Of a stretch of 64,000 nucleotides of DNA, positions 13,052 to 18,720 are shown piece by piece (position 1 is the first letter of the stretch; each line of letters begins with the position of its first letter). The translations under genes and the position numbers were made by a program. A model generated the notes under the pieces. That model made no database searches, was not told the origin of the DNA, and saw only the letters and a program-made list of their open reading frames with translations. Source of the DNA: Marinilactibacillus piezotolerans (GTDB lineage Bacteria > Bacillota > Bacilli > Lactobacillales > Carnobacteriaceae_A); the NCBI RefSeq assembly GCF_900169305.1, contig NZ_FWDP01000002.1, positions 248,001 through 312,000 of the forward strand, written 5' to 3'.

Positions 13052-14980
13052 TTATTCATCAGATGTTGTATCTGATTCATCACTTTGCGGAGGTGTCATG
13101 CCAGCTGGAGGCGTCATACCGCCTGTGGGCCTTCCTCCTCCGCCAGCGCCTCCAGGCATCTGACCACTGCCGCCCATGCCCATTCCAGAAGCCGCTTGTT
13201 CAGTTGTGGCTTCAAGTTCAGCTAAAATTGAGCCGCTGTAGTATTCTGCCGTATCGTATATTCCATTCGTTGCCTCACCTGTTAACCCGTCGATCATTGA
13301 GATTGTATACGTTTCGCCTTCTACTAAGTCAGCCGATGAATATACAAGTGACTGACTGTCTTCTTGAAGTTCAAAAGTGAAGATCACTTCGTTATTTGCA
13401 TTTGCTATTTGAATCACGTCTCCTTGTGTTAGGGATAGATCTGCTGTGAATAAGCTTGGTTGTTCTGAAGTGGATGAAGTTGCCATTGCCATCTGTGAAC
13501 TGCCGTTTACGATCAGTGTACCGCCGGAAATATCAAAGCTGCTGTCATAATCCAGCGCTCCGTTTCCTCCGCCTGTTGGTCCATTGACAACAACTAATCC
13601 ATTTGTCATTTCTATATTTCCATTACTGTCAATGCCATCACCATCCGCGTTGACGATCACTTCTCCGCCATTGAGGTTTATCGTTGCCGTTCCTGTATCA
13701 CTAGCTGCATTTAATCCATCATCAGAAGTATTGACTTCAATCGTTCCGCCATTAATGGTTAAAGCATCACTTTCAAGTCCTTCATAGGCTGTCTGGACTA
13801 GAATGTTTCCTTCTTCAATCGTCAATGCGGTATTTGCATGAACGGCATCGTCTCCGGTAGAAAGATCATAATTTCCTCCGTTAACTGAAATTGTCCCATC
13901 AGAATGAATGGCATCATCTTGACTGTCCACGACAAACTCTCCGCCATTTAAAACCATTGTCCCTGTTGCTTTGATACCTTTTGCACTTGTCGATTCTTCT
14001 GTGTCCTCTTCTACATCGTTGGTATTCTCCGTTTCGGACCAGCTGCCCCAGTCACTCATCGCCGTTTGTGTTTCAGCATTTGCACTGCCGCCATTTGTTA
14101 CTATATTGAACTGTCCACCGTTAATCTCCAGATCGGTTTCAGCTTGAATCCCATCTCCGGCAGCTGTTAAATTAAAGGTTCCATCTTCAATTAGAATATA
14201 GCCTTTGCCTTCTTCTGTATCGTTTGTAGATTGAATCGCATCTTTTGCAGCAGTGATATCGTAGGTTCCACCTGTAATCACAATTGAATCTCGTCCTTTG
14301 ATCCCGTCTTGAACAGAAGCAATCGTGTAGTTACCGTTTGTGATGGTTACATCATCTTTACCTTTGATGGCATTTTTATAGTTAGCATCAATTATCAGGC
14401 TGCCTGATCCATTCAGTACCAGATCTCCTTTACTGAACAAAGTTGCATCCGGTTCATCACCTTCTTCATTCTCAAACGTGTAGGTTTCAGTATCGGCAAG
14501 TGTATTTTCTGTACCTTCTGCTAGTGTCACGATCGTATTTCCAGCGTTCACTGAGTAGATAGCGGCTCCAGACTCATTAATAATAGATGCGCCGTTTAAA
14601 ACGACTTGTACGTCTGCTTCATCCGCTGCTTCAATGCGGACTTGTCCATTGGTCAATGTACCTTCTAAGACGTATGTCCCAGGTTCCGTAATGGTGATCA
14701 CATCGTCACTGACCGATGCACCTGATCCCTCTACAGTTGTTGCGCCATCTTCCAGTGTAATGACTGTACTTGTTGCGATGTCCCATTCTTCATCTTCAGA
14801 AGATACTTCTGAAGAACTCAGCTCTAATGTGTCCACTGTAACGGCTTGGGATGTTTCATCTGATGATGCAGTCGTCGTTGAACTAGCTGCCGTGTCGGCA
14901 CAAGCCCCCAGAAACAGCAGACTGCTTGCTAGAAAAGTATAAACCCTTTTTTTAGGCATTAATTTAAATGACTTTTTCAT
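13052..14980 (-). CDS. Carbohydrate-binding domain lipoprotein (Cthe_2159/DUF4353-like)
   Basis: This 642-aa secreted lipoprotein has a lipobox at about residues 24-27 (LGAC). Low-complexity Ser/Thr/Glu sequence follows. Then comes a long run of short repeats of the type DDGINS / GGTYDI / NGGEFVVDSQDDAIHSDG at about 110-480, predicting a right-handed beta-helix. This fits the carbohydrate-binding family typified by Cthe_2159, whose founder binds polygalacturonate and calcium. The tail is rich in Gly, Met and Pro. It is the last gene of an operon with a VTC-domain protein and DUF4956, a partnership recurrent in Firmicutes. It probably acts at the cell surface; the ligand is unknown. GGAG SD twelve bases upstream of the ATG. 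Confidence 0.85.
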   Translation of the reverse strand: MKKSFKLMPKKRVYTFLASSLLFLGACADTAASSTTTASSDETSQAVTVDTLELSSSEVSSEDEEWDIATSTVITLEDGATTVEGSGASVSDDVITITEPGTYVLEGTLTNGQVRIEAADEADVQVVLNGASIINESGAAIYSVNAGNTIVTLAEGTENTLADTETYTFENEEGDEPDATLFSKGDLVLNGSGSLIIDANYKNAIKGKDDVTITNGNYTIASVQDGIKGRDSIVITGGTYDITAAKDAIQSTNDTEEGKGYILIEDGTFNLTAAGDGIQAETDLEINGGQFNIVTNGGSANAETQTAMSDWGSWSETENTNDVEEDTEESTSAKGIKATGTMVLNGGEFVVDSQDDAIHSDGTISVNGGNYDLSTGDDAVHANTALTIEEGNILVQTAYEGLESDALTINGGTIEVNTSDDGLNAASDTGTATINLNGGEVIVNADGDGIDSNGNIEMTNGLVVVNGPTGGGNGALDYDSSFDISGGTLIVNGSSQMAMATSSTSEQPSLFTADLSLTQGDVIQIANANNEVIFTFELQEDSQSLVYSSADLVEGETYTISMIDGLTGEATNGIYDTAEYYSGSILAELEATTEQAASGMGMGGSGQMPGGAGGGGRPTGGMTPPAGMTPPQSDESDTTSDE

Positions 14981-15010: not shown

Positions 15011-15685
15011 TTATGATGCTAATTCTCCGTTATAGCTAACTAAGGATGCATTCAGTACCCCTTCAGTCGCAAAAAGTTCGCTCATAAAAGCTGTGTCGTT
15101 TTCTCTTATTCTGACTTCATAAATCAATTCAGGTTGTCCATTGACTAAGGTTTTTGATTTTAATTTCAAACGGTCGATCTGTTGTCTTAAAATGTCTGTT
15201 GCAGCTACTTCTGCTGTTTCGTTTTTCAGATCCAGCATTAAGATGTAAGCTAGTTCTTTTTCTTTGTGCATCGTAAAGACGAGCAACACGGCTGCGATAA
15301 AGAATGAACCAACATATGCTAACAAGTAGAAACCAGCTCCTAGAATAATTCCGACACCGATTGACCAAAACAAGAAGACTAAATCAAGCGGATCTTTGAT
15401 GGCGGTTCTGAACCGGACGATCGATAGTGCTCCAACCATCCCAAGCGACAAGACAACATTGGATGTAACGGCCAGAATAACGAAAGTCGTCAGCAAGCTC
15501 AGCATAACAAGGGATGTGTTGAACTGCGTTGAATACATGACTCCTTTAAAAGTCTTTTTATAAATGTAGTAGATGCATAATCCGATCAAAAGGGATGATG
15601 ATAATGCAAAAAGTGCGTTTAATGGTGAAAATTCACTTAATTCCTCTACAAAACTACTTTTAATGATTTCTGAAAAATTGACCAT
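15011..15685 (-). CDS. DUF4956 family membrane protein
   Basis: This 224-aa protein has about four membrane helices between residues 20 and 140 and a soluble C-terminal ferredoxin-like region. The hallmark GALSIVRFRTAIKDP of DUF4956 lies at about 86-100. Its molecular role is unknown. It lies between the VTC-domain gene (28 bp upstream) and the carbohydrate-binding lipoprotein, and this trio recurs in many Gram-positive genomes, suggesting one membrane-surface system. SD AAAGGAG precedes the ATG. Confidence 0.85.
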   Translation of the reverse strand: MVNFSEIIKSSFVEELSEFSPLNALFALSSSLLIGLCIYYIYKKTFKGVMYSTQFNTSLVMLSLLTTFVILAVTSNVVLSLGMVGALSIVRFRTAIKDPLDLVFLFWSIGVGIILGAGFYLLAYVGSFFIAAVLLVFTMHKEKELAYILMLDLKNETAEVAATDILRQQIDRLKLKSKTLVNGQPELIYEVRIRENDTAFMSELFATEGVLNASLVSYNGELAS

Positions 15686-15713: not shown

Positions 15714-16397
15714 TTATACAGTCAGTAATCTTGATATTTTGTATTTTGAGTGTCCGCAGGAAGTGGTCTCTGCTATCTGAACGAGTTCACGGATCCACCC
15801 CGGCAAGTAGGTGTCATATTTCACTTCTAGAACACATGCTACATCTGTTTCTCTGTGCATAACGGCTTCTGACTTCAAAAAGTCTTGAACTCGATTGGAA
15901 GCCCGCATATTATAGTCTAATGTGACTCGAGTATTGCCATGCTTATAAGCAAAAGCTTCCCGGTCGTAAGCAACAATAACTTTAGGTTTCAACAAATCTG
16001 TTCTAGCATTCATATAAAAATTCTGCTTGAGAGGATCATCGGAATATTTGAGAAATTTGAAGTCTCCTTGAGTCAACCGTTCAGCTTCTTCTCTCGTCAG
16101 CTTGGTACTGAGTTTATAACCGGCATTGTATTCTCTGACTTTCTTTTCTAATCGAATAAAAGATAGATCCTGATTATAATACCGGACTCTGAATTTCTCT
16201 CTTTCGGCATTTCCATCTTGGTTATCGTAATAAGATTCATCTTCTGGATTATCAAAGTACAAGCTTGAAATATGATAATGGTTCCCGACTACATGCTCGT
16301 CATGCGGCAGCAGTTTCCTGAGCCTCTTCATCAATACCTGTTTGGATAATTCGGATATTTCATGTTTATATTCATGTCTGTAAAATTTCTCTTCCAT
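15714..16397 (-). CDS. VTC-domain (polyphosphate polymerase-like) protein
   Basis: This 227-aa protein has the tunnel fold of yeast Vtc4 and CYTH-type enzymes. Basic and acidic tunnel residues are visible: YRHEYKHEI near the start, KFRVRYY, IRLEKK, and CVLEVKYD near the end. In yeast the domain makes polyphosphate from ATP; bacterial members are annotated by likeness only. I start at the ATG at 16397, preceded by GAGGGG seven bases upstream; a frame from 16424 lacks an SD. It is the first gene of the operon with DUF4956 and the beta-helix lipoprotein. Its promoter shares a direct-repeat module with that of the two-component system upstream. Confidence 0.85.
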   Translation of the reverse strand: MEEKFYRHEYKHEISELSKQVLMKRLRKLLPHDEHVVGNHYHISSLYFDNPEDESYYDNQDGNAEREKFRVRYYNQDLSFIRLEKKVREYNAGYKLSTKLTREEAERLTQGDFKFLKYSDDPLKQNFYMNARTDLLKPKVIVAYDREAFAYKHGNTRVTLDYNMRASNRVQDFLKSEAVMHRETDVACVLEVKYDTYLPGWIRELVQIAETTSCGHSKYKISRLLTV

Positions 16398-16430
16398 TTT
16401 GTTTTCCCCTCTTTCCTTGTCCATGTGTTT

Positions 16431-16487
16431 ATAATACGCCGATCCTTTTCTGACTTCTCCGTAAACCTGATTGAAAGTTGCGGCAAA
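16431..16487 (-). promoter_or_regulatory. VTC operon promoter with 11-bp-phased direct repeats
   Basis: On the minus strand TTTGCCGCAAC, TTTCAATCAGG and TTTACGGAGAA stand in tandem at 11-bp spacing (16455-16487). A -10 element TATTAT (16431-16436) begins 29 bases after the first T of TTTACG. The same elements at the same distances occur upstream of the response regulator gene (18664-18720), so this is a likely binding site of that regulator. The -35 is poor, fitting activation. Confidence 0.65.
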
Positions 16488-16504
16488 GTTAACGCAGTTT
16501 TTTT

Positions 16505-16546
16505 AAAATAAAAAACCGAGACAACTCATTTGCTGAGTGTCTCGGT
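16505..16546 (-). terminator. Intrinsic terminator of the two-component operon
   Basis: A 13-bp stem (ACCGAGACA and CTCA against complements) is followed on the minus strand by TTTTTTATTTT, about 20 bp after the kinase stop. Confidence 0.85.
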
Positions 16547-16564
16547 AAATGTTACTGATCATGA

Positions 16565-17947
16565 TTAGGATATTTTATTTAGAAAAATCATGAAGCTTGT
16601 TCCGCTGTCGTTTGAAGATACTTCGATTCGACCGCCATATGAAGTAACAATCGCTTTGACAATGGAAAGCCCGATTCCATGGACCCCTTTTTCACCAAAA
16701 TAGAAGCGATCAAAAATATGCGGTAAATCTTTATCGGAAATCGCAGCTCCATCATTGTAAACACCAAGAATGATCCGGTCTCCTTGTTCTTTACAAGTCA
16801 ATCGTATTCGACTGTCTGCATATCTTAAAGCATTGGAAACTAGATTCTGTATGACTCTTTCAATGTCTTTTTCATCATACGCATACAAAACAGGTTTATC
16901 TGAAAAATCAAATTCCGGCTGGATATTTTTTTCATTGAAAAGCCGACTGTAACGCTCTGCAGTATATGAGAGTGTCTCCCTCAAGTCATTTTGACTTGTC
17001 ATCCGGTCCGGAGATTTAGATTCCAGCCTTGAAAGGTACAGAATGTCTTCAACTAGATGTGCCAGTTGATCCGTTTCTTTTTTGATGACTTCTGCGCCTT
17101 TCTCACTTTCAATAATATCGTACTGTATACCTTCTGCCGTATTTTTAATAATCTGCAACGGTGTTCTCAACTCGTGAGAAGCATTCTGGAAAAATGTCCG
17201 CTGATCTGCATCATACTGACGAAGCTTATCTGTCGTTTCATTCATGGCTTGTTTCAGTTCGTGAGATTCTTTGTCAGCAAATTCCTCATCGATCGTTTCG
17301 TACCTGCCTTCACCAATCCGCTGAGCAAATTGCGCCAGACTTTTCATGGGTTTTGCGATTCTAAGTGAAATAAAGTACGTAATGCCTAAAGCGGCAACTA
17401 AAACGGTCACTAGTACGATAATCAGTAAAAGATTCAACCGATTCTCTAAGTGATACAAATCCGTCATATTGATAAAATAGACAGCTGTTACATCAGGATT
17501 TTCAGTGTCTGTCACCATTGTGTAGTAATACAGACTATCTTCCCATTCCAATCGTGCCTGTTCAACATCTTCCAGTGCTATACTTTGTTCTTCCAACCCT
17601 TCTACAAAATTCACTGAATCTGTATCCTGCTGGATATCGACTGGGAATTCAGCGGGAAAAAGAATGGCATAATTCTCATCAATCAACGCTCTGTTGACCG
17701 AAACAGCAAATGCCGGATCGTTGTCTCTCGGTCCTGCATCTAGCAGCGGATTGCCCTCAGCATCTCTTGGTTCCCTTCCGATATTCTGACTGGAAAGTGA
17801 TAGCAATTCATTGGCAGAACTTTCGATATATTGAGTAAACAGAAAATTAAACGTCAGCATAATGATCACAAAAGCGGCGATCATCAACCCAGAGACCATT
17901 CCTAATAGTTTGAACTGAATACTGTGTTTATTCTTCCTTCTGCTCAT
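16565..17947 (-). CDS. Membrane sensor histidine kinase
   Basis: This 460-aa kinase has membrane helices at about 14-36 and 171-194, with an extracellular sensing region of about 130 residues between them. A HAMP linker follows (about 195-245), then a HisKA domain with His258 in NASHELRTPL, and a HATPase domain (NALRYAD; YNDGAAISDKDLPHIFDRFYFGE; GIGLSIVKAIV). It phosphorylates the response regulator encoded just upstream, whose stop it overlaps by four bases. The signal is unknown. The shared repeats at its own and the VTC operon promoters suggest control of that surface system. Confidence 0.92.
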   Translation of the reverse strand: MSRRKNKHSIQFKLLGMVSGLMIAAFVIIMLTFNFLFTQYIESSANELLSLSSQNIGREPRDAEGNPLLDAGPRDNDPAFAVSVNRALIDENYAILFPAEFPVDIQQDTDSVNFVEGLEEQSIALEDVEQARLEWEDSLYYYTMVTDTENPDVTAVYFINMTDLYHLENRLNLLLIIVLVTVLVAALGITYFISLRIAKPMKSLAQFAQRIGEGRYETIDEEFADKESHELKQAMNETTDKLRQYDADQRTFFQNASHELRTPLQIIKNTAEGIQYDIIESEKGAEVIKKETDQLAHLVEDILYLSRLESKSPDRMTSQNDLRETLSYTAERYSRLFNEKNIQPEFDFSDKPVLYAYDEKDIERVIQNLVSNALRYADSRIRLTCKEQGDRIILGVYNDGAAISDKDLPHIFDRFYFGEKGVHGIGLSIVKAIVTSYGGRIEVSSNDSGTSFMIFLNKIS

Positions 17948-18639
17948 TCAGTTGTCTCCTTCAGAGTAAACCCAAATCCCCAGACGGTTTCGATCTGAAT
18001 GGTTGCTTCGGTCAGCTTTTTCCGAAGACGGCGAATCGTGTCGTCACAGGCCCGGGTCTCAATATCTTTTCCATATCCCCATACTGATTCCAGCAATTCT
18101 TCTCTAGAAACCGCCCGATCTTTATTTTTCATTAAATATAAGAAAACATTATACTCATTGGGCGTCAGATCAATCGTTTGTTCATTCACCGATGTTCTCA
18201 TGGAATCCGGCGTCAAGGTCACATTGCCGAGTGTGTATGCCTCTTGTTCAGCAGCACCTTGATTCTGCTTGTCCATTTTCACTCTGCGCAGCATGGCTTT
18301 AACCCGCATATTCAGCGCGATAGCACTGAACGGCTTAGTGAAATAATCATCACTGCCTAAATTAATGCCTGTTGCATAATCCAAATCACTGTCTTTTGCC
18401 GTCAGTAAAATAATAGGTACCGAACTGATTTCTCTGATACTGCGTGTGATATCGAATCCGCTTGATCCCGGCATCATAACGTCCAGAATAATCAGATCGG
18501 ATTCTTCTTTTTTAAATTGTTCAAATAACAAATCGCCATTTTCAAAATCGATCACTTCATACCCTTCGCTTTCCAAAAAGCTCTTAACGGTCAATCGAAT
18601 GGTTGTTTCATCTTCGGCAATGTATATTTTTTCTGCCAT
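17944..18639 (-). CDS. OmpR-family response regulator
   Basis: This 231-aa regulator has an N-terminal receiver domain with phospho-acceptor Asp53 (ILDVMMPG) and the conserved LLTAKD and TKPF. The C-terminal winged-helix DNA-binding domain spans about 130-228 (LTPNEYNVFLYLMKN, DDTIRRLRKKL). The ATG at 18639 is chosen because GAGGTG lies six bases upstream; a GTG three codons earlier overlaps that SD. OmpR-type regulators bind tandem repeats with about 11-bp phasing, and such repeats lie in its own promoter and in that of the VTC operon. Confidence 0.93.
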   Translation of the reverse strand: MAEKIYIAEDETTIRLTVKSFLESEGYEVIDFENGDLLFEQFKKEESDLIILDVMMPGSSGFDITRSIREISSVPIILLTAKDSDLDYATGINLGSDDYFTKPFSAIALNMRVKAMLRRVKMDKQNQGAAEQEAYTLGNVTLTPDSMRTSVNEQTIDLTPNEYNVFLYLMKNKDRAVSREELLESVWGYGKDIETRACDDTIRRLRKKLTEATIQIETVWGFGFTLKETTE

Positions 18640-18663
18640 ACCGTTCACCTCTATCCTACTCTT

Positions 18664-18720
18664 AGTATACTAAAGATTGTGCAGAACTTTCACGTAAATT
18701 TGAAGCAATATTGAGGCAAA
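18664..18720 (-). promoter_or_regulatory. Autoregulatory promoter of the two-component operon
   Basis: On the minus strand TTTGCCTCAAT, ATTGCTTCAAA and TTTACGTGAAA are in tandem at 11-bp spacing. The -10 TATACT (18664-18669) begins 29 bases after the first T of TTTACG. Layout and spacing are identical to those of the VTC operon promoter. Confidence 0.65.

Follow-up and report, generated by a model that had tools for sequence, protein, structure and literature searches.

In Marinilactibacillus piezotolerans, a two-component system and the neighbouring operon for a VTC-domain protein, a DUF4956 membrane protein and a Cthe_2159-family lipoprotein are preceded by promoters that share one sequence pattern. 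This pattern is very likely an operator bound by the product of the adjacent gene, an OmpR/PhoB-type response regulator (RR) that would regulate itself and activate an envelope regulon. It is specific within the genome, is conserved among relatives, recurring before corresponding genes in many Bacillota, stands at a fixed position relative to the -10 element and is found together with the RR gene. A single signal very probably turns on the whole VTC-linked gene set. The window analysed is a stretch of 64,000 nucleotides, and its relevant features, all on the minus strand, are as follows.

18664-18720 (-), promoter of the RR-histidine kinase (HK) unit, from pattern scans and models R1 and R2
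18710-18720 and 18699-18709 (-), RR promoter steps TTTGCCTCAAT and ATTGCTTCAAA
18688-18698 (-), RR promoter box TTTACGTGAAA
18664-18669 (-), RR promoter -10, TATACT
17944-18648 (-), OmpR/PhoB-type RR, Response_reg and Trans_reg_C
16565-17947 (-), sensor HK, HisKA and HATPase_c
16515-16546 (-), intrinsic terminator of the RR-HK unit, -19.6 kcal/mol, z -5.5
16431-16498 (-), VTC operon promoter, from pattern scans and models R1 and R2
16488-16498, 16477-16487 and 16466-16476 (-), VTC promoter steps ACTGCGTTAAC, TTTGCCGCAAC and TTTCAATCAGG
16455-16465 (-), VTC promoter box TTTACGGAGAA
16431-16436 (-), VTC promoter -10, TATTAT
15714-16424 (-), VTC-domain protein, polyphosphate-polymerase-like, PF09359, E 3.3e-34
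15011-15685 (-), DUF4956 membrane protein, domain search
13052-14980 (-), Cthe_2159-family carbohydrate-binding lipoprotein, domain search

Two Promoters with One Pattern

The original prediction held that the two promoters share TTTGCC and TTTACG elements at equal spacing, an observation that proved real. Scanning the window for TTTGCC-N16-TTTACG with zero mismatches returned just 16460-16487 and 18693-18720, both on the minus strand, and all remaining window matches have at least two mismatches. Across the genome (2,293,274 bp in four contigs) the only two exact matches are these same RR and VTC-DUF4956-Cthe_2159 promoters, and nine further matches carry one mismatch. At both promoters the start of TTTACG lies 29 bp before the -10. 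Some details of the proposed pattern needed amendment. Its extension to TTTGCC-n16-TTTACG-n23-TATwwT would miss the RR -10, TATACT; in the consensus TTTACGkrGA, TTTACG is present at both promoters and the third position of krGA fails at the RR box (TTTACGTGAA). The description as three tandem steps is likewise approximate at the VTC promoter, where the middle step, TTTCAATCAGG, is weak and an additional step, ACTGCGTTAAC, stands upstream.

The intrinsic terminator between HK and the VTC promoter makes the RR-HK genes and the VTC operon separate units. Translation of the RR likely begins at the ATG at 18639 rather than at the first start codon of the open reading frame, given the position of the -10, and translation of the VTC-domain protein probably begins at the ATG at 16397, since the first ATG of that frame sits at the transcription start expected from the -10. 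The RR combines a receiver domain with the winged-helix Trans_reg_C domain of the OmpR/PhoB family, and the sensor part of HK gave no match in the Pfam domain search. The VTC protein has the VTC tunnel domain (PF09359) and matches Vtc4 weakly in sequence (E 0.11); polyphosphate synthesis by it is putative. The DUF4956 protein of the window is weakly similar to the MgtC family NF007431 (E 1.3e-4).

Held-Out Models and a Third Operator

Two models of the operator were built from relatives. Model R1 comprises 33 relatives' promoters and zero window sequence, its training resting partly on species that also enter the order-wide co-occurrence described below; model R2 comprises clostridial and other non-Lactobacillales loci only and was not trained on the two genera of that co-occurrence. 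R1 found three significant sites in the genome, at the RR promoter (7.3e-7), the VTC promoter (6.4e-6) and the promoter of a gene for a lipoprotein of the metallo-beta-lactamase fold (MBL-fold; 2.1e-5), the next match being at 0.04. The same three head the R2 ranking in this Lactobacillales genome, as VTC (6.4e-5), MBL (5.5e-4) and RR (5.5e-3), followed by a match at 0.045; these E-values are rough owing to a short calibration, of which the ranking is independent. The fourth-best genome site (contig C1, 1173355; E 0.04) coincides with the beginning of an ABC-transporter gene and was taken as noise.

C3:233504-233570 (-), third operator, from R1 and R2, outside the window

The third operator reads TTTACCACATA-ATTACCACAGA-ATTCAATCAGT-TTTACGGAGAA, followed at 29 bp by TATAAT, and stands before the MBL-fold lipoprotein gene, which is unlinked to the window loci. 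Both gene and operator are also found in both Marinilactibacillus relatives. An rve IS-type transposase gene lies just upstream, and an RDD-family gene lies further downstream.

Co-occurrence of the Operator with the Response Regulator

The order was represented by 295 genomes. Seven of them have an RR ortholog, all from two genera only, and these are exactly the seven with at least two sites; on the evidence of these two genera, the operator is present with the regulator and absent without it. Four RR-less genomes hold a single marginal match each (E 1.7e-4 to 4.6e-4), two of them inside coding frames, one just before a start codon and one upstream of a small protein. In a set of 31 genomes comprising this organism and its relatives, multiple sites occur solely in the three with an RR ortholog, and ten genomes have VTC with neither RR nor site. 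The genome itself contains a second VTC operon.

C1, about 736638-739698 (L104:3639-6699), second VTC system, CotH-VTC-DUF4956, among polysaccharide-biosynthesis-type genes

In the genome-wide R1 scan this operon has no operator site, and the operator therefore tracks the regulator rather than VTC operons generally. (Its DUF4956 protein shows a weak similarity to PF02308, MgtC, E 9.5e-4.) Two further genomes with an RR homologue, Faecalimicrobium (G297, RR 59% identical) and Clostridium sp. (G305, 57%), gave no match at E 0.001.

These distributions bear on whether the motif is instead bound by another, more widespread OmpR-type regulator that uses 11-bp direct repeats (WalR, PhoP or CiaR-like) and that co-regulates the two-component system and the VTC operon. 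Repeats of this phase are shared by OmpR/PhoB-family regulators, and the RR does resemble YycF and PhoB, although its NCBIfam scores (CseB, 184.6 against a cut-off of 350 bits; PhoB, 178.8 against 296.2; YycF, 180.5 against 340) all fall under the curated cut-offs and an assignment as the WalR/YycF, PhoB or CseB equivalog was rejected. Nearly all members of the group have WalR-type regulators, however, and in the 295 genomes multiple sites are confined to those with the RR ortholog, which makes such a regulator an improbable source of the pattern. Among VTC-linked RRs the recognition-helix region (TRACDDTIRRLRKKL) is nearly invariant.

Operator Form and Promoter Geometry in Relatives

Comparison with relatives drew on eighty loci that encode RR relatives. 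Linkage of the two units in related species had been put forward for checking; the arrangement RR-HK-VTC-DUF4956, in many cases with Cthe_2159 or CotH behind it, is conserved from Carnobacteriaceae to Clostridia (Marinilactibacillus, Trichococcus, Alkalibacter, Youngiibacter, Romboutsia, Metaclostridioides, Desulfoscipio and others). The locus in a record labelled Sedimentibacter sp. SX930 hardly differs from the Trichococcus one, and the record is perhaps mislabelled. Within 260 bp after HK, a match with at most two mismatches was present in 29 of the 34 VTC-linked loci against 0.34 expected from the opposite-strand rate, a count in which related species are entered separately and the independent number is smaller. 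In Marinilactibacillus and Trichococcus the motif stands at both promoters. The outcome named beforehand as refuting the prediction, a lack of the motif at these loci in close relatives, was thus looked for and not seen.

When aligned, the operator consists of three to four tandem 11-bp steps, TTTGCnnCAnn, with a final step TTT(A/T)CGgaGA, a direct repeat with a period of about one helical turn. The boxes of relatives divide into CGT(A/G)A at RR promoters and CGG(A/G/T)GA at target promoters; as the latter were gathered with TTT[AT]CGG[AGT]GA, their form and conservation are partly selected and their distance to the -10 is unselected. In relatives' RR promoters it is chiefly the middle step and box that are retained (ATTGCCGCAGT-TTTTCGTAA; as an operator variant, ATTGCCnCAnn-TTTTCGTAA), again at 29 bp, and the first TTTGCC of the window RR promoter is not conserved in them. 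The strict 22-bp-spaced pattern, found at 1 of 34 with up to two mismatches, underestimates these promoters, as alignment by box and -10 revealed the site.

The position of the box is fixed beside the -10, 29-30 bp before it and in place of a -35. In all 53 collected promoters the best -10 offset is either 29 bp (39 promoters) or 30 bp (14), with a mean match of 5.1/6 versus 3.2 in shuffles, and among offsets 10-39 the peak at 29-30 stands out in 28 representatives. The -35 match in the 53 promoters is at chance level (2.3 versus 2.5). Since the box overlaps the -35 region and the direction of regulation is unreadable from sequence alone, the RR might bind these sites as a repressor from which a signal releases the promoters. 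All promoters nevertheless have a well-matched -10 at a constant distance of 29-30 bp and no -35, an arrangement that fits activation and leaves a repressor nothing to preserve, and we consider repression quite unlikely. That the pattern arose by chance similarity or by recent promoter duplication within a single genome, as the initial evidence of just two short matches would allow, is extremely improbable, being contradicted by the conservation in relatives, by models from other genera and another class that find both sites, and by the unrelated spacers between box and -10 at the RR and VTC promoters (4/18 identical).

Proposed Mechanism and Extent of the Regulon

Activation by the adjacent RR is thus the preferred reading. 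The phosphorylated RR is predicted to bind head-to-tail on three to four direct repeats spaced 11 bp, one helical turn, apart. The last repeat, TTT(A/T)CGgaGA, would lie at about -41 to -31, the usual place of the -35, and from this position the RR would recruit RNA polymerase where a -10 is present and a -35 is missing. Activation by the RR would extend to the RR gene itself, to the VTC-DUF4956-Cthe_2159 operon and to the unlinked gene for the extracytoplasmic MBL-fold lipoprotein, in response to what may be an envelope or redox condition. Self-activation together with activation of the adjacent VTC system, as originally predicted, is the natural reading of a motif that stands at both promoters in relatives and co-occurs with the RR gene.

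Both originally proposed targets are retained, and the regulon appears larger than was claimed, given the third genome site and further sites elsewhere. The site follows the genes even when these are not adjacent to the two-component system: in a C. difficile genome it precedes a VTC-DUF4956 operon about 16 kb away from that system, and in Youngiibacter it precedes a Cthe_2159 gene on another contig. CotH-containing VTC operons in relatives also carry the operator, as do the genes for TraX in Trichococcus and an HtrA-like protease in Alkalibacter. In Romboutsia a site stands before NapH-like/FMN-bind/ApbE genes upstream of RR (L033:3265-5837), and in a Trichococcus genome before an ApbE and NapH-like/FMN-bind operon far from the two-component system (L153:4660-7357). 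In relatives the same operator would thus control VTC operons with CotH, the HtrA-like protease, TraX, and ApbE with FMN-binding and NapH-like proteins. The operator shared by the ApbE and NapH-like/FMN-bind genes of Trichococcus and Romboutsia may point to a link between VTC systems and flavin-based extracytosolic electron transfer; the M. piezotolerans genome has just one FMN_bind gene, and this gene has no operator site. Most site-linked products elsewhere are membrane proteins, secreted proteins, lipoproteins or modifiers of such proteins.

Relation to Known Systems and Significance

An OmpR-type RR with a tandem direct-repeat operator is a well-known kind of system. Like the regulators that act on PhoP, WalR, CiaR and PhoB boxes, the RR described here has Response_reg and Trans_reg_C domains, and its operator has head-to-tail 11-bp half-sites, the last at the -35 position, and an autoregulation site. 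Unlike those boxes, the half-site here is TTTGCnnCA / TTT(A/T)CGgaGA, and the targets are VTC-DUF4956-Cthe_2159, ApbE/FMN-bind/NapH-like, HtrA-like, TraX and MBL-fold lipoprotein genes. In the searched literature, from which most subscription papers were absent, no description was found of the operator, of the regulon, or of DUF4956 or VTC with a two-component system.

Two sets of genes have been described in other settings. CotH-PPP-DUF4956 sets accompany Gram-positive pel loci as accessory genes (PMC7112168) and share with the present locus a VTC/PPP gene beside DUF4956, often with CotH. In contrast to the pel-locus sets, the window genes are joined with a two-component system and a Cthe_2159 lipoprotein and are marked by the operator, and no pel genes occur among the listed open reading frames around the window VTC operon. 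The CotH-VTC-DUF4956 operon of the same genome resembles the pel accessory set (PMC7112168) but has no operator. The ApbE, FMN-bind and NapH-like operons behind the operator in Trichococcus and Romboutsia are like the flavinylated extracytosolic electron-transfer systems described as operons of ApbE, FMN-bind and a NapH-like 4Fe-4S membrane protein (PMC8238504); the terms "response regulator" and "polyphosphate" are absent from the main text of that study, and no VTC link is therefore described there.

It is an evenly balanced proposition that this two-component system defines a widespread and so far undescribed Bacillota envelope/redox regulon, in which one operator code would couple VTC-DUF4956-(CotH or Cthe_2159) sets, ApbE/FMN-bind/NapH-like genes, HtrA-like proteases and envelope lipoproteins and would make VTC-DUF4956 systems part of one shared physiological response. 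Little is understood of the VTC-DUF4956-Cthe_2159/CotH gene sets, widespread as they are, and the conserved operator connects them with a single signalling pair. It supplies a list of co-regulated genes for many species, the motif model is usable for regulon mapping in other Bacillota, and which stimulus acts on the VTC set becomes a question that a reporter fused to a defined promoter can address.
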